Assembly (NCBI RefSeq): GCF_900215295.1
Contig: NZ_OCMF01000002.1
Coordinates: 124,001 to 188,000 of the forward strand
Source of the DNA: Salinimicrobium sediminis
GTDB taxonomy: Bacteria; Bacteroidota; Bacteroidia; Flavobacteriales; Flavobacteriaceae
Length of the DNA: 64,000 nt
Direction: 5' to 3'
The notes under the pieces are model-generated. The model was not told where the DNA came from, ran no database searches, and worked only from the letters and a program-made list of their open reading frames with translations. The translations under genes and the position numbers were made by a program. This document shows positions 51,490-64,000 of the stretch, in pieces. Numbering within the stretch: the first letter of the stretch is position 1; each line of letters begins with the position of its first letter.

Positions 51490-52572
51490 ATGGTAAAAAG
51501 AATCCGTCACCTCTCCAAAAGACCTAAGTCCACAAAAGCACTTCACCAGGCTCCGGGCACTGTCACATATGTGGGTAGTAAGGAACAGGTGGAAACGACC
51601 CTTGAAGTGATAGATTATAATGCAGATAACTTTGAAAGGTTTACCTCTAAAACTCCCGAAGACGCTTTTAAATTTGAAGCCGAAGACCGCACCACCTGGA
51701 TCAATATTGACGGACTTAGCAATACAGCTGAAATTGAAAAGGTGGGGAAATATTATGAACTCCACCCGTTGATCATTGAAGACATAGTGAATACCAATCA
51801 GCGGCCAAAAATTGATGAATATGGAGATTATTTTTTCATAGTTGCCAAGATGCTCTATTACCGTAAAGACGGGAGATTGGAAAATGAACACATTAGCATT
51901 GTTCTCGGGAAGAACTATGTACTCACCTTTCAGGAAGCGGGAGGAGATGTTTTTGACGGGGTACGGGAACGGCTTAGCAATGCCAAAGGCCGCATTAGAA
52001 GCAGGGGAGCAGATTACCTTGTTTTTGCCCTTTTAGACGCCATAGTAGATAATTACTTCGTGGTGGTAGAGGAGATGAGTGATAAGATTGAGAGTCTGGA
52101 GGAACGTTTATTCAATGCACAACCAAATGATGATATTACTCTTGAAATTCAGGAATTAAAACGCACTATGTTAAGGATAAGACGGGCGGTGAATCCATTA
52201 AGGGAAGTGGTGAGCAGGCTTGAGAAGGTAGATCATGAATTGGTACAGGAACAAACCATCAATTACATTAGGGATCTTTACGATCACATGATCCAGGTTT
52301 CAGAAAACATTGAGATCTACAGGGAAATGACCTGGGGCTTAATGGATATGTACATGACCACCATTAGCAACAAAATGAATGAGGTGATGAAGGTGTTGAC
52401 CATTATGGCCTCTATATTTATTCCGCTAACTTTCCTCGCAGGTCTCTACGGAATGAATTTCGAATACATGCCCGAACTGGAGTATAGATTCAGTTATCCT
52501 ATTTTATTGGGCGTAATGTTCCTTATGTTGCTGGGGATGCTGTTCTATTTCAAACGCAAACACTGGTTATGA
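51490..52572 (+). CDS. corA: Magnesium/cobalt transporter CorA
   Basis: A pentameric Mg2+ channel of 360 aa. It has a long cytoplasmic N-terminal domain, the stalk helix (about 240-300) and two C-terminal membrane helices. The signature YGMN is visible (GMN at 321-323), followed by FEYMPEL, and the C-terminus is basic (FKRKHWL). The 3' end overlaps the convergent hemerythrin gene by 6 bases. Confidence 0.95.
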   Translation: MVKRIRHLSKRPKSTKALHQAPGTVTYVGSKEQVETTLEVIDYNADNFERFTSKTPEDAFKFEAEDRTTWINIDGLSNTAEIEKVGKYYELHPLIIEDIVNTNQRPKIDEYGDYFFIVAKMLYYRKDGRLENEHISIVLGKNYVLTFQEAGGDVFDGVRERLSNAKGRIRSRGADYLVFALLDAIVDNYFVVVEEMSDKIESLEERLFNAQPNDDITLEIQELKRTMLRIRRAVNPLREVVSRLEKVDHELVQEQTINYIRDLYDHMIQVSENIEIYREMTWGLMDMYMTTISNKMNEVMKVLTIMASIFIPLTFLAGLYGMNFEYMPELEYRFSYPILLGVMFLMLLGMLFYFKRKHWL

Positions 52573-53040
52573 TTCTTCCTTTAGCCAGAATTTGTCATCC
52601 CAGTCTTCAGGATCGGGGGTACGCACCTCTTCCTCCTTATTTGTGATGTTTTGAAGAGCCTCTTTAGAAGCTGTCTTTTGAAGCTCCTGAAAAAGTTCTC
52701 TTTCCTCAAACCTGATATGCCGGTTAAGTTCGGTCTCAATAGCAGTAAAAATTTCTACCGATGCTTCTTCTTTAAAAAGGAACTCCAGTCTTCTGTGTTC
52801 GTTGACTGCTCTTTCCTTCATTGAATGGTAGCTTCCTAAAAGCGGAAAGATCTCCCTTTCTTCAAATCTAAAGTGTGGTCTTAACTGGGAAGTGAAGAAA
52901 TAATCTGTGTAATTCTTAATACGCGCGGGTGATACCTGCTTTTTTATCCCTTCTCTTATTTTCCAGCACAGCAAAAGGCCATGGTGGTGGTCTCGGCTCA
53001 ACGGTTTCAAGGCTTCGTGTCTAACAATAGGCTTTGTCAT
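52567..53040 (-). CDS. Hemerythrin-like (HHE domain) protein
   Basis: A 157-aa cytosolic protein with a four-helix hemerythrin domain. Iron-ligand candidates are in LSRDHHHGLLL (about 14-24), HFRFEEREIFP (about 56-66), NEHRRLE (about 80-86) and HIRFEERELF (about 107-116), and the C-terminus is acidic. Such proteins bind O2 or NO or sense oxidants. It might belong with the NO/N2O physiology of the nos cluster, but it is far from it and this is inference. Confidence 0.88.
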   Translation of the reverse strand: MTKPIVRHEALKPLSRDHHHGLLLCWKIREGIKKQVSPARIKNYTDYFFTSQLRPHFRFEEREIFPLLGSYHSMKERAVNEHRRLEFLFKEEASVEIFTAIETELNRHIRFEERELFQELQKTASKEALQNITNKEEEVRTPDPEDWDDKFWLKEES

Positions 53041-53234
53041 GTTGTTGTATATGGATTGACGGCAAAGTTAAGCCCCTTGTCGGCAAGGCCTTATGATACA
53101 GGTCATGTATGGTGTAATATTGGAAGGAGGAAATAGATTTTATCTTTTTTTTAATATCCTAAACCCTCCAATATCCTTGAAAGCTTTATAATTTAGAAGA
53201 AACAGGATGAATTTTTGAATTAAAATCAATTCCA

Positions 53235-54200
53235 ATGAAAATAGGATTTCACGCCTCTCATGAACAATTTTCTCCCCGCCATTTACTAGAACTGGTACAA
53301 AAAGCCGAGGCTGCAGGTTTTAAAGCAGTATTATCTTCAGATCATTTTCATCCCTGGAGCGACCTGCAGGGGGAAAGCGGTTTTGCCTGGAGCTGGCTGG
53401 GAGCGGCTATGCAGGCTACTTCTATGGAATACGGAATTGTAAATGCTCCGGGTCAAAGATATCATCCTGCTATTATTGCCCAGGCCGTTGCTACTTTAGA
53501 TCAAATGTTCCCCGGGAGATTCTTTTTATGTTCAGGGAGCGGGCAACTGTTGAATGAAAATATTACCGGGGAGAAATGGCCTTCCAAAAGGGACAGAAAC
53601 AAAAGATTACAGGAGTCAGTGGAAGTGATGCGGCGCCTTTGGCAGGAGGAGGATTATCTCAATCACAAAGGAATGTTTACTGTTGAAAGAGCTAAACTAT
53701 TTACCAAACCCACTCACATTCCCACAGTTTTTGGAGCAGCAATCACTGAAAAAACTGCAGCCTGGCTTTCTTCCTGGGCAGATGGGATGATTACCATTTC
53801 TAAACCATTAGAGGATTTGGAGAAAATGGTAAAAGCGTTTAGAGGTACAGATGGTGCGAATAAACCTATGGCTTTAAAAGTGCAGATTTCCTATGCAAAA
53901 ACCCGGGAAGAAGCTTTGGACGGAGCCTGGGAACAATGGAAAAATAACATTTACCCTAGCAAGCTCATAGCAGATATTGACAGCCCCGAAAAATTTGATG
54001 CTCTGGGTATGAATACCAGGAAAGAAGATCTGGAAAAGCACGTGATCATTGGAGATAGTGCAGAGATCTTTATTGACAGGATTAAAGAATATGAAGAAAT
54101 GGGATTTGAAAAGATCATCATTCATAACGTGAATAAAGAACAGGAAAGTTATATCGATTTCTTCGGAAAGGAAGTGCTTCCCAATTTCCAACAACAATAA
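53235..54200 (+). CDS. Luciferase-like flavin oxidoreductase (TIGR03885-type)
   Basis: A 321-aa TIM-barrel protein of the luciferase-like monooxygenase superfamily. Motifs include SSDHFHPWSDLQGESGFAWSWLGAAMQAT (about 34-62), the FLCSGSGQLLNE region (about 98-109) and the family C-terminus. It resembles F420-dependent glucose-6-phosphate dehydrogenase relatives, but Bacteroidota generally lack F420, so FMN is more likely (the non-F420 group TIGR03885). It lies 9 bases upstream of two GH13 genes, so a sugar-related substrate is plausible but unproven. Confidence 0.8.
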   Translation: MKIGFHASHEQFSPRHLLELVQKAEAAGFKAVLSSDHFHPWSDLQGESGFAWSWLGAAMQATSMEYGIVNAPGQRYHPAIIAQAVATLDQMFPGRFFLCSGSGQLLNENITGEKWPSKRDRNKRLQESVEVMRRLWQEEDYLNHKGMFTVERAKLFTKPTHIPTVFGAAITEKTAAWLSSWADGMITISKPLEDLEKMVKAFRGTDGANKPMALKVQISYAKTREEALDGAWEQWKNNIYPSKLIADIDSPEKFDALGMNTRKEDLEKHVIIGDSAEIFIDRIKEYEEMGFEKIIIHNVNKEQESYIDFFGKEVLPNFQQQ

Positions 54201-54209
54201 TTAGCCAAC

Positions 54210-55850
54210 ATGAACAAATATTGGTATAAAAATGCCGTGATCTATTCGCTGGATGTAGAAACCTTTAAGGATTCAAATGGTGACGGCACAGGAGATTTTA
54301 AGGGCTTAAAAAATGCCCTGCCTTACCTTTCCAGCCTGGGGGTAACCTGTTTATGGCTTCTTCCCATATTCGATACTCCTAACCGCGACAACGGTTATGA
54401 TGTAAAGGATTATTACAAAATAGATCCCAGGCTGGGAGACCTGGGCCACCTTGCGCAGTTGATAGACGCTGCGGAAGAAGTAGGGATTAGGGTGATCATT
54501 GATCTCGCCGTAAACCACACCTCGATTGAACATCCCTGGTTTCAGAAATCGCGGGAAGACAAAAATTCGAAATTTAGGAATTACTATATATGGCTAGATG
54601 AAAAACCGGAAGATCCCGAACGCAACATGATGGCCGAAGATGGGGAAGATGCTACCAGCTGGAAATATGATAGGAAAGCCAAGGCATATTACTTCCATTC
54701 CTTTTATCCACACCAGCCCGATCTTAATCTTGCCAATCCCGATGTACAGGAAGAGATCTTCAGGATCATGCATTTCTGGCTTAAAATGGGAATTTCAGGA
54801 TTCAGGATAGACGCAGCTCCTCATATGTTCAAGGAAAAGGGAAGAATGGATTTTGAAGGAGATCCACATGAGATCTTTAGAAACTTCCGGTCTTTTGTTG
54901 AGACTCAAAAACCGGATGCCATATTACTGGCCGAGGTCGATCTCGACCCTAACCAGTACAACAAATACCTGGGAAATGAAGATCAAATGCATATGCTCTT
55001 CAATTTTTACGTGAATAATTTCCTTTACCTCGCTTTCGCTAGAGAAGAGGCCACTCCGTTGTCCCGTGCTTTACAAAGAATGCCTATTGAAATTACTGAA
55101 AAAGAACAGCTGGCCACATTTCTTCGGAATCATGACGAGCTCAACCTCGATAAATTGAGCCGGAATGAAAGGGAGGAGGTCTTTAAAGTTTTTGCGCCGG
55201 ACGAAAATATGAGGATCTTCGGCCGCGGAATCAGAAGAAGATTGGCTTCTATTCTGGGCAATGACCGGAAAAAAATGGAACTGGCGCACAGTCTTTTATT
55301 CACCCTTCCCGGCACGCCGGTACTGCGATATGGTGAGGAGATTGGAATGGGAGAGGATCTTTCTATGGAAGGTCGGTCCAGTGTTCGTACCGTCATGCAA
55401 TGGTCTAATGAGAAAAACGGCGGATTCTCCACAGCACCCACAGAAAATCTAATAAGAAATGTCATTTCCGGAGGGGATTACGGTTATGAAAAAGTAAATG
55501 TAAGTGATCAATTAAGAGATCCGGAATCATTTCTTACCTGGATCTCGAAGGCCATTGATTACCGAAAAGAATTTCCTGAATTCGGCTGGGGCCGTAATAA
55601 TATCATAGACACCGGCGATCCTCACGTATTGGGTCATTACGTAAAATCGGATAAAGGAATGGGAATAGCCTTTCACAACATGTCGGGAAAAGAAATAACT
55701 ATTAAACTGGAAATAGATAAAGATGAATTTAAAGATGTAGTAGATGTCTTTGGAAACATCAGGTATGAAAGTTTTGATCCTGAAAAACCGGAAGTGAGAC
55801 TAACAGCTTACGGTTACAGATGGATGCACAAAAAACACAATTTCTTATGA
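54210..55850 (+). CDS. GH13 enzyme, trehalose synthase-like (no maltokinase domain)
   Basis: A 546-aa cytosolic GH13 enzyme closest to the trehalose synthase group (GH13_16). Active-site residues are nucleophile D201 (GFRIDAAPHM), acid/base E242 (LLAEVDLD) and D309 (FLRNHDELN). Region I is DLAVNHTS, and YFHSFYPHQPDLNLANPDVQ matches TreS. It is a different protein from the treS-mak fusion of this window, with no kinase part, and a C-terminal beta domain ends at RWMHKKHNFL. The next gene overlaps its stop (ATGA). Trehalose/maltose isomerase is likely; amylase or sucrose-isomerase activity cannot be excluded. Confidence 0.85.
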   Translation: MNKYWYKNAVIYSLDVETFKDSNGDGTGDFKGLKNALPYLSSLGVTCLWLLPIFDTPNRDNGYDVKDYYKIDPRLGDLGHLAQLIDAAEEVGIRVIIDLAVNHTSIEHPWFQKSREDKNSKFRNYYIWLDEKPEDPERNMMAEDGEDATSWKYDRKAKAYYFHSFYPHQPDLNLANPDVQEEIFRIMHFWLKMGISGFRIDAAPHMFKEKGRMDFEGDPHEIFRNFRSFVETQKPDAILLAEVDLDPNQYNKYLGNEDQMHMLFNFYVNNFLYLAFAREEATPLSRALQRMPIEITEKEQLATFLRNHDELNLDKLSRNEREEVFKVFAPDENMRIFGRGIRRRLASILGNDRKKMELAHSLLFTLPGTPVLRYGEEIGMGEDLSMEGRSSVRTVMQWSNEKNGGFSTAPTENLIRNVISGGDYGYEKVNVSDQLRDPESFLTWISKAIDYRKEFPEFGWGRNNIIDTGDPHVLGHYVKSDKGMGIAFHNMSGKEITIKLEIDKDEFKDVVDVFGNIRYESFDPEKPEVRLTAYGYRWMHKKHNFL

Positions 55851-57442
55851 CAGAAAAAGAGTATTTATGGTGGCACAAGGGAGTAGTTTACCAGATCTAT
55901 CCCCGGTCATTTCAGGATAGTGATGGTGACGGAATTGGAGATATCAAAGGAATTATTAACAGATTGGACTACCTGCAGGACCTCGGGGTCAAGGCAGTAT
56001 GGGTATCACCTGTTTTTCCTTCTCCCATGGCCGATTTTGGATATGATGTAAGTGATTATACCGGAATACATGAAATGTTTGGAAGCATGGAAGATTTTGA
56101 TGAGCTGCTTAAATCTGTTCATCAACGGGATATGAAGCTTATTCTGGACCTGGTGCCAAACCACTCCTCAAACCAACACCCCTGGTTTCAGGAATCTAAA
56201 AGTTCCATAGACAATCCCAAGCGTGACTGGTATATCTGGAAAGATCCTGCACAGGGCGGCGGACTACCAAATAACTGGCTAAGTGTATTTGGAGGTTCGG
56301 GCTGGGAATATGATGAAACTACAGGCCAATATTACTACCATGCCTTTTTGAAGGAACAGCCCGATTTAAACTGGAGAAATCCTGAGGTGCAAAAAGCTGT
56401 TTTTGATGCTATGCGTTTCTGGCTTAAGAAAGGGGTTGATGGTTTTAGAGTTGATGTGATGTGGCACATGATCAAGGATGAACAGTTCAGAAATAATCCA
56501 CCAAATCCCGATTATTCCAAAGACATGTCTTCCTATAATAAACTTATTCCCGCTTATTCTACAGATCAGGATGAAGTACATGAGATTGTGGCCAAAATGC
56601 GAAATGTCATAGAAGAATTTGATGAACGGTTGCTTATTGGGGAGATCTACCTGCCCATCTCTAAATTAGTTACCTATTATGGCCATAACAATGAAGGAGC
56701 GCACCTGCCATTCAATTTTCAGCTATTGGAGCTGCCATGGGATGCTGAAAAGATCAATGCCACCATCAATGAATATGAAGGGGCATTGCCCGAAAATGGC
56801 TGGCCAAACTGGGTTTTAGGAAACCATGACAAATCGCGTATAGCCAGCAGAGTGGGGAAGGAGCAGGCAAAAATAGCAGCTATGATGCTCCTAACGCTTA
56901 GAGGCACTCCCACCATCTACTATGGAGATGAACTGGGAATGGAAGACGTGGACATTCCTGAAGATAAAATTAAAGATCCCCAGGCGCTCAATGAACCCGG
57001 AGTGGGTCGAAGCCGGGATCCTGAACGCACCCCTATGCAGTGGGATGATTCTCAAAATGCCGGCTTTACCAAAGGGGAACCATGGCTTCCGCTAAGTGAT
57101 GATTTTAAAGAGGTGAATGTAAAAAGGCAATGGGATCAAAAAGGTTCTATGCTCAAGCTTCACAGGGATCTTCTAAAATTAAGAGCTGAGGAAGCCGCAT
57201 TGAACATTGGAGAATACACTCCTGTTTTTACAAAAAAAGATCTCCTGTCTTACATCAGGGAGCATAAGAATTCAAAATTCCTGGTGGTACTTAATTTAGG
57301 TACTTCTGAAATAATTTTTGAACCGGAACTGGAGTGGAAAGGCAGCGTATTAATTTCCACACATCCGGAAATGGAAGGCAAAGAATTAAAAAATAAAACA
57401 AAAATAGCCCCTAATATGGGATTGCTAATAAAATTAAAATAA
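55847..57442 (+). CDS. GH13 alpha-glucosidase (oligo-1,6-glucosidase-like)
   Basis: A 531-aa cytosolic enzyme from the ATG at 55847 (MTEKEYLWWHKGVVYQIYP), which overlaps the previous stop by 4 bases; a longer frame opens 27 bases earlier but is not needed. Nucleophile D203 (GFRVDVMWH), acid/base E266 (LLIGEIYLP) and D328 (VLGNHDKSR) are visible. QPDLNWRNPEVQ marks the oligo-1,6-glucosidase subgroup. Specificity for alpha-1,4 or alpha-1,6 bonds is not settled by sequence. It may cleave maltose or isomalto-oligosaccharides made by its GH13 neighbour. Confidence 0.9.
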   Translation: MTEKEYLWWHKGVVYQIYPRSFQDSDGDGIGDIKGIINRLDYLQDLGVKAVWVSPVFPSPMADFGYDVSDYTGIHEMFGSMEDFDELLKSVHQRDMKLILDLVPNHSSNQHPWFQESKSSIDNPKRDWYIWKDPAQGGGLPNNWLSVFGGSGWEYDETTGQYYYHAFLKEQPDLNWRNPEVQKAVFDAMRFWLKKGVDGFRVDVMWHMIKDEQFRNNPPNPDYSKDMSSYNKLIPAYSTDQDEVHEIVAKMRNVIEEFDERLLIGEIYLPISKLVTYYGHNNEGAHLPFNFQLLELPWDAEKINATINEYEGALPENGWPNWVLGNHDKSRIASRVGKEQAKIAAMMLLTLRGTPTIYYGDELGMEDVDIPEDKIKDPQALNEPGVGRSRDPERTPMQWDDSQNAGFTKGEPWLPLSDDFKEVNVKRQWDQKGSMLKLHRDLLKLRAEEAALNIGEYTPVFTKKDLLSYIREHKNSKFLVVLNLGTSEIIFEPELEWKGSVLISTHPEMEGKELKNKTKIAPNMGLLIKLK

Positions 57443-57443
57443 C

Positions 57444-57815
57444 ATGAGAGCATTAGGAAAGAAGACCTGGGTGATCGCTGAAGGCTATATACCCGAATAT
57501 GGTACAGGAAAGGAACCGGAATTCACAAGTCATGAAACAGCCTGCATTCTCAACACCTCGAATGAGGATGCTAAGGTGGAGCTAACCATTTATTTTTCAG
57601 ATAAAGATCCTGTGGGGCCATATAAAGTAACCGTGGAGGCACAGCGAACTAAACATTTAAGGTTCAATGATCTAAAAGATCCTGCGCCTGTACCTTTAGG
57701 AACAGATTATGCCTGTGTGATAGAATCTTCCATTCCGGTGGTTGTGCAACATACCCGCCTTGATTCAAGGCAGGCAGAAAATGCACTTTTGACCACCATT
57801 GCTTATTCGGAATAA
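57444..57815 (+). CDS. Homologue of Anabaena sensory rhodopsin transducer
   Basis: A 123-aa cytosolic protein. It reads WVIAEGYIPEYGTGKEPEF (9 onward), SHETACILNTSNEDAKVELTIYFSDKDPVGPY, RTKHLRFNDL and VVVQHTRLDSRQAENALLTTIAYSE, which agree closely with Anabaena sensory rhodopsin transducer (ASRT, DUF1362) as I recall it. ASRT is a small beta-sandwich tetramer that can interact with rhodopsin and with DNA. No rhodopsin gene is present here; instead it ends a sugar-metabolism operon, starting one base after the GH13 stop. A sugar-binding or regulatory role is possible. Confidence 0.85.
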   Translation: MRALGKKTWVIAEGYIPEYGTGKEPEFTSHETACILNTSNEDAKVELTIYFSDKDPVGPYKVTVEAQRTKHLRFNDLKDPAPVPLGTDYACVIESSIPVVVQHTRLDSRQAENALLTTIAYSE

Positions 57816-59526: not shown

Positions 59527-59546
59527 GCTGAGTGATCACTCAGCTT
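59525..59546. repeat. Perfect 22-bp palindrome spanning two convergent stop codons
   Basis: AAGCTGAGTGATCACTCAGCTT. It covers most of the lipoprotein TAA (59524-59526) and all of the AstE-like TGA (59536-59538 on the minus strand). It has no T run, so it is at best a weak terminator or a processing hairpin. Confidence 0.8.
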
Positions 59547-60435
59547 CCTCTATAATGAAAAATCCGTCATTTCCCTGCGACTGGTAAAGGGGCATAAAAA
59601 TATATGCATCCCATTCGCTTTCTATTTCACGGCCATTGCTGGTTGCCAGCAACTGGCCTTTTTTGATCTTCTGGAAATTCTTAAATCCGGGTTCCATTTT
59701 GAAACTATCGCCTTTCTTTATTTCATGGCGATAAGTAATCTCAAAGACCTTTTGAGAAGGAGCATTCTTTTCTGTAAACCGCTCTACACATTCTGGATAG
59801 CAGGAAAGTTTTTCCACCTCAAGGCCGTTTGCTTCCTTAAGAGCTAACCAGATGACCCCTTCATGGTTTTCTACAGATGCAGGATTCTCATGTTGTCCTG
59901 CTTCAAAAACGAATCCCGTAAGGCCTGTTCGGCTCATATAATGGTCAATTGCTCCGTAAATGATATCACTAAAACCCCGGACTATATAAGTGGGAAATTT
60001 TTGAGCCCAGCTATCATTATCGTTTACATCCTGCACAGAAATATACGGGTAGCTGTCTGAAGAGGTTGTATGACAATCTAAAAAGTACCTTTTTGAATAA
60101 ACATCTTCCGGAAACTGTTCCAGCACTTCAATAATCTCGTGCATTTCACGCTGTTCCTGTGTTTCCGGGTCATGGTTATTTACATTATCCTCTGTCCAGG
60201 TGCGGTTAAGATCTTCATCTATATATCGTTGACCTTTTTGAAGTGCAGACTTATTACCCATAACTCCAACAATCCTGCCTTTGATCTCCGGCTTTGTTTT
60301 TTCCAATTCGGCAAAGACCTTTTCCAAAGCTTTTACGCCGCTGGGTTCGTTACCATGTACTCCGGCCGTAACAAAGAGTAAAGGACCTTCATTTCCGCTG
60401 GTATAATTTCCTATAATTCTTGAATTGTCTTTCAT
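59536..60435 (-). CDS. AstE/AspA-type zinc deacylase (succinylglutamate desuccinylase/aspartoacylase family)
   Basis: A 299-aa cytosolic M14-fold enzyme. Zinc ligands H27 and E30 (AGVHGNEPSG) and H122 (FLDCHTTSSD), the substrate-binding EDLNRTW (74-80) and catalytic E178 (GFVFEAGQHEN) are all visible. Relatives remove the acyl group from N-acyl amino acids or act as carboxypeptidases. Its position at the end of the DUF1704/ATP-grasp operon, 11 bases after the second ligase gene, suggests it cleaves an amide made by those ligases (inference). Confidence 0.85.
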   Translation of the reverse strand: MKDNSRIIGNYTSGNEGPLLFVTAGVHGNEPSGVKALEKVFAELEKTKPEIKGRIVGVMGNKSALQKGQRYIDEDLNRTWTEDNVNNHDPETQEQREMHEIIEVLEQFPEDVYSKRYFLDCHTTSSDSYPYISVQDVNDNDSWAQKFPTYIVRGFSDIIYGAIDHYMSRTGLTGFVFEAGQHENPASVENHEGVIWLALKEANGLEVEKLSCYPECVERFTEKNAPSQKVFEITYRHEIKKGDSFKMEPGFKNFQKIKKGQLLATSNGREIESEWDAYIFMPLYQSQGNDGFFIIEEAE

Positions 60436-60446
60436 TTATATTTTCT

Positions 60447-61496
60447 TTATTCCATAGTGGCCAAAACATGGTTGTCGATCTGGCCTTTGTATAATTTTTT
60501 ATACTCCACTTTTCTTTCAATAGAATCTATAACCACATCAGAAAAATCGGGTAATCCAATTTCTCCAAAATGATCCATGCCCCCTGGGCCAAGAACATTG
60601 ATCTCTATAAGCTTATCCTTTACGATATCCAGACCTACAAAGAAGAGTCCGTCGCGAATCAATTTTGGGGCGGTAACATCAATAATTCTCTTCATCGCAT
60701 CGGTAAAAGGACTTTTGTCTCCGGTTCCTCCCTGATTAAAATTGCTGCGGAATTCTCCTTCCCCGGTAACTCTCCGAATAATTCCGTAGTTGCCATCTTT
60801 TTCCATTACCCGACCATTCATAAGTAGTACTCTAACATCACCATCTTTGGCAGCCGGAAGATATTCCTGGGCAATAATATATCCCTGAGCAGAAAGATTT
60901 TCTATGATCTGATTCAGGTTCTTTTCATTTTTGTCTATGAGATAAACATCTCTACCTCCGGATCCCTCCAATGGCTTAAGCACCATCTTCTTTTTGTGCT
61001 TCTCAAAGAATTCCATAATATCCTCCTTTTTGCGGGTAATAATGGAATTTGGTTTAATACTGGCAGGTAATTCCTCGAAGTACAATTTGTCTATAAAGGC
61101 ATTGGATAGGGCATAGGCATCATTAAGCACCAATACGCCTTCCTGCTGCATCATTCGTCCAAAGGCAACCCCGGCCTGTTCTGCCCATTGCCTGGAGGAT
61201 CCTTCTTCGGTAGGATTATTTCTTATAAAAAGCACATCAAGATCTGTAGCCACGATGCGTTCTTTTATAGCTTTATCACTTTGCAGCGCCTCGAGATAAG
61301 CCTGAGGCGTCTTAATTTCCATTTTTTTAGGGACATATGTGGAATAGATGCTGAGGGCTTCATTTTGTGCGAAATAAAAATCGCCCACTCCCATGGCATA
61401 AACATCGTGATTCCTTTTTCTAGCTTCCTGCATTAGAAAAACAGTGGTCCCGCAAGTTTCGGTTTCCACATCATTGACTACAAAACAAATTTTCAT
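60447..61496 (-). CDS. GshB-like ATP-grasp ligase (copy 2)
   Basis: A 349-aa ATP-grasp enzyme resembling prokaryotic glutathione synthetase. The N-terminal domain begins MKICFVVNDVETETCGTTVF. DVLFIRNNPTEEGSSRQWAE (about 86-105), MVLKPLEGSGGRDVYLI (about 171-187, ATP-binding) and LIEINVLGPGGMDHF (about 305-319, metal ligands) are visible. It is colinear with the next protein without gaps and about two-thirds identical by eye. With GshB partners absent here, it probably joins an amino acid or peptide to another carboxylate. Confidence 0.85.
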   Translation of the reverse strand: MKICFVVNDVETETCGTTVFLMQEARKRNHDVYAMGVGDFYFAQNEALSIYSTYVPKKMEIKTPQAYLEALQSDKAIKERIVATDLDVLFIRNNPTEEGSSRQWAEQAGVAFGRMMQQEGVLVLNDAYALSNAFIDKLYFEELPASIKPNSIITRKKEDIMEFFEKHKKKMVLKPLEGSGGRDVYLIDKNEKNLNQIIENLSAQGYIIAQEYLPAAKDGDVRVLLMNGRVMEKDGNYGIIRRVTGEGEFRSNFNQGGTGDKSPFTDAMKRIIDVTAPKLIRDGLFFVGLDIVKDKLIEINVLGPGGMDHFGEIGLPDFSDVVIDSIERKVEYKKLYKGQIDNHVLATME

Positions 61497-61587
61497 ATAA
61501 TTATTTTAGATTTTTCTTATTCAATTTTTAATATTTCTATCCATTGCCCATTGAACCTTAAATGTAAATGGGGTTTTATTTTAAACT

Positions 61588-62637
61588 TTAAACCATTGTG
61601 GCGAGTTCCCTGTTATTAACGGTCTTCTCATAATGTTTTTTGTATTCAATTTTCCTTTCTATAGCTTCCACTATAACATCCGAAAAATTGTCAACTCCTA
61701 TTTTTGCAAGCCCATCCAAACCTCCCGGACTAAGCACATTGATCTCGATCAATTTATCCTTTACCGCATCCAGACCCACAAAGAACATCCCGTCTCTAAT
61801 TAATCGCGGCGCAATGGTATCTACGATCTTTCTTATATCGTCTGTGATCTCAATAGCTTCAGGAGTACCACCCTGGGAAATATTACTGCGGAAATCACCT
61901 TTGGAAGTCTTTCTTTTAATAATTCCGAATTTGCCATTTTTCTCAAGTATTTTTCCGTTTAGCAGTAACACCCTAACATCTCCTTCTTTTGCCGCCGGTA
62001 AATATTGTTGTGCTATGATATAACCCTCCTTTGTGAGATTTTCGATGATCTGGTTAAGGTTCTTCTCATTCTTGTCGATCAGGTAAACTCCGCGACCGCC
62101 TGAACCTTCAAGAGGCTTAAGGATCATTTTTTTCTTATGATTTTCGAAGAACTCCAGAATTTCGCCTTTATCACGGGTGATCAGGGAATCTGGTTTAATA
62201 TGAGCCGGTAATTCCTCGAAGTATAGTTTATCAATAAAAGCATGGGAAAGTGCAAAAGCATCATTAAGGACCAGCACTCCTTCCTGCTGAATCATCCGAC
62301 CAAACGCCACACCGGCATTCTCCGCCCAGTTGCGATCTGTTCCTTCCTCTGTTGGATTGTTCCTAATGAAAAGAACATCCAGCTCTGTAGCCTTGATCTT
62401 TTTCTTTACTGCTTTATCACTTTGCAGTAGCTCAAGGTTTTCCTCGGGGGTAGCCGGTTCAGACTTTTTAGGAAGAGTTACGCACAATATGCTTATAGCT
62501 TCATTTTGGGAGAAGCTAAAGTCGCCCACTCCCATAAGATACACTTCATGACCTCGTTTCCAGGCTTCGTGCATAATGTAAACTGTTGTTCCTGCTCCTT
62601 CAGTTTCAATGCTGTTAACTACAAAACATATTTTCAT
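61588..62637 (-). CDS. GshB-like ATP-grasp ligase (copy 1)
   Basis: A 349-aa paralogue of the previous protein, with the same ATP-grasp landmarks (MILKPLEGSGGRGVYLI and LIEINVLSPGGLDGL). The ATG overlaps the DUF1704 stop by 4 bases (ATGA), and 91 bases separate it from the second copy. The paralogues differ most in the segments around 52-75 and 240-260, and at the PGG-adjacent residues (SPGGLDG versus GPGGMDH), which could set substrate choice. Confidence 0.85.
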   Translation of the reverse strand: MKICFVVNSIETEGAGTTVYIMHEAWKRGHEVYLMGVGDFSFSQNEAISILCVTLPKKSEPATPEENLELLQSDKAVKKKIKATELDVLFIRNNPTEEGTDRNWAENAGVAFGRMIQQEGVLVLNDAFALSHAFIDKLYFEELPAHIKPDSLITRDKGEILEFFENHKKKMILKPLEGSGGRGVYLIDKNEKNLNQIIENLTKEGYIIAQQYLPAAKEGDVRVLLLNGKILEKNGKFGIIKRKTSKGDFRSNISQGGTPEAIEITDDIRKIVDTIAPRLIRDGMFFVGLDAVKDKLIEINVLSPGGLDGLAKIGVDNFSDVIVEAIERKIEYKKHYEKTVNNRELATMV

Positions 62638-64000
62638 GCATTAATTAGTTGTGAAAGAGAAATCCCCTTTCTGATTTGATTTATTTTCTCGTTGGTTTCT
62701 TCTGTTTTTAAATATCTCGGGGTAAGGCTAACCGGTAATAACACCCGTCTGTCTCGCAATTCATTGATAATGGGCATATGTTCCAAAGCAAACTTTCCGG
62801 TTAACAAAGGCTCCAATTCTCCGCCTTCTTCTAGATATTCCTTTACCTGTAAAATGCCTTTGAAATAGGAGATATCTTTGGTAAAGCCGCCACCCTGCAT
62901 GATCCTTGATGTAATATTAAAAGATCGGGCAGGGGAGAAGTTGTAATCCTTATGTAGCAACCGGAATATACCCTGGAAATCTGCACCATGCATTCTTGCT
63001 GCAGAAGCTACTACTCTCCCCGCAAGGGTTCTCATCCTGTTTGCGGTCAATCCTCCAACAAAATATTCAGACATTACGGCAAGGCCTTCCTGCAGGGTAT
63101 CATAATCTGTAAGTCCAATTGATAAAAGCTTTAAAGGTTGCCGCTTTCCATTATAATAGGTAAGGACATGAGTACCTATTTCATGCTGAACAAGAGCAAT
63201 GGTCTCATTGGTATTCAATTTATAATCTATCGGGATATATAATTCTCCCTGGGAGACCATTAAAATATTCACATCACTCCGCACGTGAACTTTACTGCTA
63301 AAGTTCTTATCCTGATTTCTGAAATAATCGAATTCCTGATGAGCAAGAGCCTTAAAATCATCGGCTTTCATGATGCTGTCAAACTCAACCTGTTCTACCT
63401 CATTTACCTCTCTTAAAAGATTCTCGGCTTCCTTTTGCAAGTGGGAATCTATATCTCCATACAACATCATACTATTATAGAAGAATTCCTTGCTTCCTCT
63501 GTCTGTCAGCATACTGATCTGCAGGTCCAGCTCTTCCCTTTTTTCCCTGAAGATGTGTGACAAAGCAGGATCGTCTATATCTTCCATTCTCAAATTGTAC
63601 AATTTCCTTTTTAGTACATCGGGATCAAAGGGGAGTAATCGATAATGGTAGTTGAGCACCTTTTCAAAGTCAGACTCAAAAAAGGTTTCTTTGATCTGCC
63701 TTATATTGGCAGGGGAGACCAGCCACAGGAATTGATAGGAAGTCTCAATTTCACTAAGTTGCCTGTCGATTTCCAGAACGTTCTCCTGAAGGCTTTTTTG
63801 TCCCAGGGCCTGGTAACTCTTTACTCCGCTGGAAGTTTGAATACGTATGAATTCAAAAATGGCTTTATGAAGGGCTACTACCAGATCATCTTTAAAACTG
63901 CGGAAGAAGACAGGAAATTCTTCTCCTTCTTCATTCCTGTAAACAGGTGGAACTTCAAGTCCTAATAATAAACATCCCGCATCTTTTATTTCCTCCAGGC
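62634..64000 (-). CDS. DUF1704 (QEGLA) metallopeptidase-like protein, N-terminus off window
   Basis: At least 455 codons are open, and the frame continues past base 64000, so the start is not visible; a GTG at 63659 is internal. The zinc-type motif HEIGTH is at 63168-63185 and QEGLA at 63078-63092. Both are hallmarks of DUF1704, which includes bacterial 'flavohemoglobin expression-modulating QEGLA motif' proteins and the human tubulin tyrosine carboxypeptidase MATCAP, where the His/Glu residues bind zinc. A carboxypeptidase or amidase role is therefore likely. It is the first visible gene of a leftward operon with two ATP-grasp ligases and an AstE-type deacylase. Confidence 0.85.
   Translation of the reverse strand, partial: LEEIKDAGCLLLGLEVPPVYRNEEGEEFPVFFRSFKDDLVVALHKAIFEFIRIQTSSGVKSYQALGQKSLQENVLEIDRQLSEIETSYQFLWLVSPANIRQIKETFFESDFEKVLNYHYRLLPFDPDVLKRKLYNLRMEDIDDPALSHIFREKREELDLQISMLTDRGSKEFFYNSMMLYGDIDSHLQKEAENLLREVNEVEQVEFDSIMKADDFKALAHQEFDYFRNQDKNFSSKVHVRSDVNILMVSQGELYIPIDYKLNTNETIALVQHEIGTHVLTYYNGKRQPLKLLSIGLTDYDTLQEGLAVMSEYFVGGLTANRMRTLAGRVVASAARMHGADFQGIFRLLHKDYNFSPARSFNITSRIMQGGGFTKDISYFKGILQVKEYLEEGGELEPLLTGKFALEHMPIINELRDRRVLLPVSLTPRYLKTEETNEKINQIRKGISLSQLINA

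Follow-up and report, generated by a model that had tools for sequence, protein, structure and literature searches.

The stretch analysed here, called the window throughout, comprises 64,000 nucleotides of Salinimicrobium sediminis (contig NZ_OCMF01000002.1, positions 124,001 to 188,000) and ends in a four-gene operon encoding a metallopeptidase homologue of the MATCAP (DUF1704) family, two ATP-grasp ligases and a zinc amidohydrolase. In order of transcription, the MATCAP gene overlaps that of ligase 1 by 4 bases (62634-62637), a 91-base gap leads to ligase 2, and an 11-base gap (60436-60446) to the AstE-like gene. The features are as follows:

62634..64000, minus strand: MATCAP/DUF1704 (PF08014) zinc carboxypeptidase homologue, by Pfam, profile and fold; open reading frame 62634-63998, open at the window end
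63168..63185, minus strand: HEIGTH, an HExxxH zinc motif (two histidine ligands and the catalytic glutamate), residues 272-277 of the 454-amino-acid window part
63078..63092, minus strand: QEGLA motif, residues 303-307 of the window part, aligned to EEGLA of human MATCAP
61588..62637, minus strand: ATP-grasp ligase 1, GshB fold, subfamily PRK12458, 349 amino acids, by Pfam, NCBIfam and Foldseek
60447..61496, minus strand: ATP-grasp ligase 2, 349 amino acids, 70% identical to ligase 1, by Pfam and NCBIfam
59536..60435, minus strand: AstE/AspA-type zinc amidohydrolase, 299 amino acids, standing in for the N-formylglutamate-amidohydrolase-like enzyme (FGase) of other loci; PF24827, zinc ligands H27, E30 and H122, DLNR motif

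A first-pass annotation of this DNA had correctly described four minus-strand genes with the 4-base overlap and the 11-base gap, missing the 91-base spacing of the ligases; it had also read HEIGTH and QEGLA in the DUF1704 protein, two 349-amino-acid ligases and an HxxE...H deacylase site, all of which hold (H27, E30 and H122, codons checked by eye). The full MATCAP gene encodes 626 amino acids and runs from window position 62634 to 64514 (L003:4635-6515, minus strand), so that 514 bp lie outside the window. All four genes exceed their Pfam cut-offs. The ratio of nonsynonymous to synonymous substitution rates (dN/dS) is 0.004-0.044 for each of them when the two most similar pairs from the genus are compared (usable pairs being 10 of 45 for MATCAP, 9 of 36 for ligase 2, 4 of 21 for ligase 1 and 7 of 28 for AstE, with most others saturated at synonymous sites), and because of these low values the four genes look real and maintained. 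An upstream promoter scan did no better than shuffles (14 found, 14.4 expected), and 8 terminators were found where 5.7 were expected.

By profile and predicted fold, the first gene product is a homologue of the MATCAP-family zinc carboxypeptidases. Its window part scores 280.6 bits against PF08014 and the full-length protein 279.3 (cut-off 27), covering profile positions 1-359 of 365. Both HEIGTH and QEGLA are intact, and in a profile alignment HEIGTH and the glutamate of QEGLA fall on their counterparts in human MATCAP; this glutamate is presumed to be the third zinc ligand. When a profile of 13 relatives was compared with solved structures, only human KIAA0895L/MATCAP was found at E <=0.1 (7z5g, E 4e-16; 7z6s, E 1.3e-14). 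The AlphaFold2 model of the window part, based on an alignment of 16 sequences, has a mean predicted local distance difference test score (pLDDT) of 71 and a predicted template-modelling score of 0.68, and a Foldseek search of the PDB with it returned human MATCAP chains for all five matches of E <0.001, the next being 3u24 and 3iuk (E 1.3e-3 and 2.0e-3; DUF885). The cut-off of the NCBIfam model TIGR02421 'QEGLA' (338.65) is missed by the window protein (307.6); among four relatives it is passed by L055 (381) and L159 (353) and missed by L062 (297) and L063 (324). A weak MATCAP-like match also occurs in a Pseudomonas phage Y1 record (OQ572403.1:63548-64441; 26% identity, E 1e-10).

The ligases score 161 and 169 bits for GSH-S_ATP (PF02955), match GSH-S_N (PF02951) as well, pass the cut-off of 408 for the PRK12458 subfamily (NF009110) with 427.2 (ligase 1) and 429.1 (ligase 2), and retain the columns that are invariant in 18 relatives. 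A model of ligase 1 (mean pLDDT 76) has GshB as its best Foldseek match (1gsa, E 6.5e-23), followed by RimK (poly-alpha-L-glutamate synthetase; RimK with RpsF) and then ArgX with its carrier protein LysW. The amidohydrolase scores 75.5 bits for AstE_AspA_cat (PF24827; cut-off 25), its zinc ligands are invariant in 10 sequences, and its nearest solved relative is the succinylglutamate desuccinylase 1yw6 (E 1.6e-11); it misses the equivalog cut-offs for AstE (TIGR03242, 65.2 against 305.65) and for aspartoacylase (NF002601, 64.1 against 180).

The association of these genes is strong. Within the genus, where 12 genomes including our own (G000) were searched, 11 carry the long MATCAP and G008 (75% complete) shows only a short form; the order MATCAP, ligase, AstE is kept in 11 of 11 loci, eight with two ligases and three with one; among the loci read, adjacent paired ligases are a trait of Salinimicrobium. 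For the phylum as a whole, 296 Bacteroidota genomes were drawn evenly. MATCAP is found in 16 of them and a PRK12458 ligase above the cut-off in 14, all 14 being MATCAP genomes with the ligase within about 2.5 kilobases (kb) of MATCAP. The fifteenth MATCAP genome, G061, has a ligase beside MATCAP at 396.5 bits, just below the cut-off, and the sixteenth, G242, has only a divergent MATCAP and no ligase. That divergent copy (L064:7931-9205 / L171:5931-7205) reads HEAYVH and QEGIA, has neither ligase nor FGase beside it and sits on a very long branch.

The third partner is most often an FGase (PF05013) with invariant His, Glu and DLNR-type columns. Our FGase model (A3) matched 14 of the 296 genomes at E 1e-10, of which 13 scored above 300 bits, and 12 of these 13 are MATCAP genomes with the FGase adjacent or fused. 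The AstE model (A5) matched 49 genomes at E 1e-30 and only three above 400 bits (our own, G111 and G329); these are exactly the MATCAP-plus-ligase genomes that lack the FGase, and in each of them AstE adjoins MATCAP, on the opposite strand in G329. In our own genome the MATCAP-linked kind of FGase was not found with model A3 at E 1e-10; a different FGase occurs there in an operon described below. In a tree of 35 MATCAPs, in which the long branch of L064 has an uncertain position, the 11 AstE-linked proteins form one group (1 change; support 82/63; 84% of bootstrap trees), which fits one single replacement of FGase by AstE. The AstE-type enzyme is thus the local substitute for the commoner FGase, and since the two can be exchanged and both carry DLNR, the third activity would be a deacylation step. 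In Bernardetia (L166), an unlinked AstE-like relative has hutH and argH at a distance of a few kb.

Two arrangements recur in other bacteria. In class A, a ligase, an FGase and a short MATCAP (about 390 amino acids) are encoded by overlapping genes (e.g., L078 and L099). Among 80 Flavobacteriaceae loci, which were picked from 572 confirmed candidates for similarity and for having the QEGLA-type pattern intact, and are therefore not a random sample, 68 are of this class, and two more, on short contigs, show only the FGase. Of the 80, 17 have a rhodanese gene within the operon and 11 a TerB-like gene that falls below its Pfam cut-off. In class B, to which the window operon belongs, FGase or AstE accompanies a ligase and a long MATCAP (about 610-650 amino acids). 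The extra N-terminal part of the long form partly aligns with FGase in a suggestive profile comparison (hhalign probability 63.6, E 6.8e-5) and by eye lacks the FGase catalytic motifs, so that it may be a decayed FGase. Rhizobial plasmids carry operons in the order FGase, long MATCAP, ligase (L159, L160, L162, L163 and L167), and, among the matches listed (60 of 116 and 60 of 162), 19 of the 19 plasmid records common to both lists have the ligase immediately after MATCAP. In two rhizobial loci glgA is close by, together with glgX or a gene for a mechanosensitive channel. Fusions of FGase to MATCAP were identified by Pfam in L034, L037, L055 and Vibrio L158, and by phmmer in Photobacterium L161 and L168; a seeming MATCAP-ligase fusion in G287 (L066, 914 amino acids) was rejected as an overlapping frame. 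Neighbouring genes of Vibrio vulnificus, one of COG3930 and the other a 'glutathione synthetase', are both described as specific to clade 2 in the excerpted text of PMC3091676.

The joint occurrence of DUF1704, GshB-like and deacylase genes in other genomes is therefore seen across the genus, the phylum sample and rhizobial plasmids, and the association is wider than the first-pass annotation had proposed. Its four-gene set needs recasting: the link between MATCAP and ligase recurs, whereas AstE is a local partner, FGase being the commoner one, and the pair of ligases is, among the loci read, limited to the genus.

As the NCBIfam name of the PRK12458 subfamily is 'glutathione synthetase', the ligases could be what they are annotated to be and make glutathione or a close gamma-glutamyl peptide. 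Their best solved relative and fold is GshB, from whose alignment several arginines and further residues are retained (by eye). Two class A ligases, of L062 and L055, even exceed the PRK05246 cut-off of 272 (282 and 278). The window ligases themselves fall far below both glutathione-synthase equivalog cut-offs, with 203 and 191 against 272 for PRK05246 and 197 and 179 against 299 for TIGR01380, and the latter is exceeded in none of the 16 MATCAP genomes, though all 16 match the model. Of the gamma-glutamylcysteine ligase families looked for, PF04262 occurs in 0 of 16 and PF04107 in 7 of 16, being missing from 9. A strong PF04107 gene (about 220 bits) lies away from MATCAP in G187, G290, G287 and G242, and the first three of these, at about 222 bits, do have MATCAP with a ligase. 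The PF04107 gene of our own genome is about 63 kb distant, in a separate operon (L172:3081-6538; G000:C7:118080-121537) of an RLAN-type ATP-grasp ligase (485 amino acids), a GCS2 carboxylate-amine ligase (408 amino acids, 4-base overlap) and the different FGase mentioned above (227 amino acids). Sinorhizobium meliloti 2011 has both gshB (SMc00419) and a PRK12458 gene on pSymB (NC_020560.1). Its gshB mutant was shown by high-performance liquid chromatography to lack glutathione (PMC7063052, in part), although the pSymB gene may be unexpressed under the conditions of that assay. Taken together, glutathione synthesis is a very unlikely role. The first-pass annotation was right in setting the ligases apart from an ordinary GshB with adjacent GshA, as the equivalog cut-offs are missed and no gamma-glutamylcysteine ligase gene is close by.

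The other inherited name, 'flavohemoglobin expression-modulating', had suggested in the same annotation a possible link to nitric-oxide stress, which would make the operon a nitric-oxide stress module. The genes nirK and nnrS do lie about 3-5 kb past the ligase in a Shinella locus (L163). No gene related to nitric oxide was found in the other five annotated MATCAP neighbourhoods, where the plasmid gene tables are incomplete. Expression in Photobacterium damselae, the sole expression data set found, runs the other way: in the excerpted text of PMC10308900, neighbouring locus tags for a 'GshB' and a QEGLA gene are raised 38-fold and 27.5-fold at 1% relative to 3% NaCl, and RimK 52-fold in the same condition, whereas genes of the reactive-nitrogen response are up at 3% NaCl. 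The proposed link derives solely from the family name, and with expression opposite to that of the reactive-nitrogen genes it has next to no probability.

A different function can be read from the chemistry of the three families. Ligases of the GshB and RimK type extend peptides at a carboxylate by way of an acyl phosphate, and the FGase and AstE families split small N-acyl acidic amino acids. Combined with the activity of the MATCAP family, this suggests a cycle acting on an N-acylated acidic peptide. In a first step, the GshB-like ligases would use ATP to convert the carboxylate of an acyl-amino acid or acyl-peptide into an acyl phosphate, onto which an amino acid would be coupled. The MATCAP-family metallopeptidase would then take the added residue off the C terminus, and the zinc amidohydrolase, commonly FGase and here AstE-like, would free the remaining, probably acidic, amino acid of its acyl group. 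We thus infer, from protein families, that the operon may be a module that builds, trims and recycles a small metabolite, an amino acid or peptide that is probably N-acylated and acidic, and give this reading a probability of about 40%. The earlier idea that the genes make, trim and recycle a modification is likewise still something that we infer.

Several observations weigh against this reading. We know of no enzyme of the PRK12458 subfamily that has a known substrate, and the operon encodes no acyltransferase, which leaves the source of the N-acyl group unexplained. The naive Fisher value for co-occurrence of MATCAP and PRK12458 (3.6e-22) is only indicative, since kinship among the sampled genomes makes such values look stronger than they are. 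Models A3 and A5 were partly built from the genomes they score best, so that the gap in score, the next AstE genome standing at 297 bits, arises partly by construction; the adjacency of AstE to MATCAP and the absence of FGase do not stem from it. Several MATCAP genomes combine FGase with unlinked, more remote AstE relatives (263-297 bits or less), and the thirteenth FGase above 300 bits (G185, L170:7252-8058, 306.6 bits) is in a genome that has no MATCAP. Partners can also be missing: no ligase lies within about 5 kb of the Vibrio fusion L158, Ensifer plasmids carry PRK12458-like ligases called 'glutathione synthetase' (L164 and L165) with no MATCAP or FGase nearby, and L035 joins MATCAP and ligase with neither FGase nor AstE adjacent, an AstE locus (L045) being present in the same genome. 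Finally, 10 of the 80 Flavobacteriaceae loci (L082, L083, L102, L107, L109, L110, L112, L115, L117 and L147) hold an intact MATCAP in a genome where neither a ligase (E 1e-60) nor an FGase (E 1e-30) was found, which means that MATCAP can exist without them. L105, a further candidate for a solitary MATCAP, was rejected, as a whole-genome search placed a ligase and an FGase directly beside it.

Solitary MATCAPs would suit a purely degradative role, in which MATCAP and FGase or AstE break down imported or damaged acyl-peptides and the ligase is a separate matter, such as salvage of the released residue. Hydrolysis accounts for two of the three activities, in keeping with this; yet the ligase is above the cut-off in 14 of the 16 MATCAP genomes of the phylum sample (15 with G061) and is duplicated here, which makes scavenging improbable. 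Another possibility is a cycle on protein tails, likened to the tubulin tyrosination or glutamylation cycle, with ligases adding amino acids, for example glutamates, to the C terminus or side chains of a protein, MATCAP removing them, and FGase or AstE processing the released fragment or a capped end. RimK and ArgX/LysW follow GshB among the fold matches of the ligase, RimK is co-induced with the ligase/MATCAP pair in P. damselae (PMC10308900, excerpt), and human MATCAPs themselves act on protein tails, from which they remove polyglutamylation (PMC10499314, excerpt). However, FGase-type and AstE-type enzymes have small N-acyl amino acids as substrates and better fit a small molecule, the operon encodes no candidate target protein, and the RimK co-induction comes from a single data set; we consider a protein-tail cycle possible, if rather unlikely.

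Our genome holds a second MATCAP (L004:5155-6360; G000:C7:271154-272359), which is strongly conserved in the genus. It reads HEIGVN and QAGLA, with two of the three metal ligands lost, and occupies the class A position, flanked by a symporter gene and a DCC-family gene, with no ligase or FGase. The second His and the Glu are lost in 10 of 11 genus copies, L010 reading HEIGVH and QDGLA. It nests inside the FGase-linked class A in the MATCAP tree, and is likely to be a pseudoenzyme that has stayed at the ancestral site of class A. Because dN/dS is low in the two closest pairs (0.017 and 0.079; no more than 6 of the 55 pairs could be used), it seems to be retained rather than decaying. More speculatively, the bacteria could run a tag cycle of the tubulin-tail kind: GshB/RimK-type ligases would write C-terminal or branched amino-acid tags on a protein or peptide, MATCAP would erase them, the eukaryotic MATCAP would descend from such an eraser, and the pseudo-MATCAP of the genus would serve as a tag reader. 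We hold this reading to be unlikely. The small-metabolite module set out above is still the reading we prefer.

Some neighbouring features can be added. Upstream of the operon, just beyond the window (L003:6866-7705), tRNA-Arg(TCT) is followed by a 353-bp tandem repeat of 2.3 copies (96% match), whose unit contains a GIY-YIG gene of 84 amino acids and closes with a duplicate of the tRNA 3' half and its terminator hairpin; the arrangement resembles a small GIY-YIG element, associated with tRNA ends, in tandem. Within the window, the genes at positions 51490-57815 include those for CorA, a hemerythrin, an LLM flavin oxidoreductase (TIGR03885), two GH13-type glycosidases (by eye) and an ASRT-family protein, an assembly reminiscent of a stress island.

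With these genes and partners in view, the operon probably represents a pathway, so far unstudied, in which a small peptide or peptide tag is built, trimmed and recycled. Such a pathway would give a function to MATCAP/DUF1704, whose bacterial members bear only a doubtful name, would correct the 'glutathione synthetase' label of the PRK12458 subfamily, and would indicate that Bacteroidota, vibrios and rhizobia have a new peptide metabolite or tag. It could also provide a tractable bacterial system for studying the origin of eukaryotic tubulin-tail trimming. Keyword searches of part of the open-licence PubMed Central literature found no functional study of a bacterial MATCAP/DUF1704 member, which leaves absence unproven, and the MATCAP1 paper PMC13269789 gives no match for 'bacterial', 'prokaryot' or DUF1704.

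Several known systems can be set beside the operon. Iyer et al. 2009 (Mol BioSyst) reportedly proposed in general, from amidoligase-peptidase gene neighbourhoods, that loci pairing ATP-grasp ligases with unrelated peptidases are peptide-modification pathways. The window ligases have GshB (1GSA) as their nearest solved relative by fold and sequence, but read SPGG where GshB has TSPT after the EINV motif, stay under both glutathione-synthase cut-offs and have no gshA nearby. The amidohydrolase shares PF24827, its three zinc ligands and DLNR with AstE and aspartoacylase, from which it differs in falling below both equivalogs and in being linked to a ligase and MATCAP; the FGase partner resembles N-formylglutamate amidohydrolase in PF05013 and the invariant His, Glu and DLNR-type columns. 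Cyanophycin synthetase CphA1 likewise directs an ATP-grasp ligase domain and a metallopeptidase-like site at the same amino-acid polymer, but it is one polypeptide, its HxxEH site lies in another domain type and its product is known (PMC9262961, excerpt). The closest parallel for the peptidase is human MATCAP/TMCP (KIAA0895L and KIAA0895), carboxypeptidases and deglutamylases that strip C-terminal residues and polyglutamylation from tubulin (PMC10499314, excerpt) and that share its Pfam family, HExxxH and EGLA motifs and fold. The bacterial protein is 15-17% identical in fold alignments, its carboxypeptidase activity is putative, its long form carries the extra N-terminal part that is possibly a decayed FGase, and it is encoded together with ligases and an amidohydrolase.

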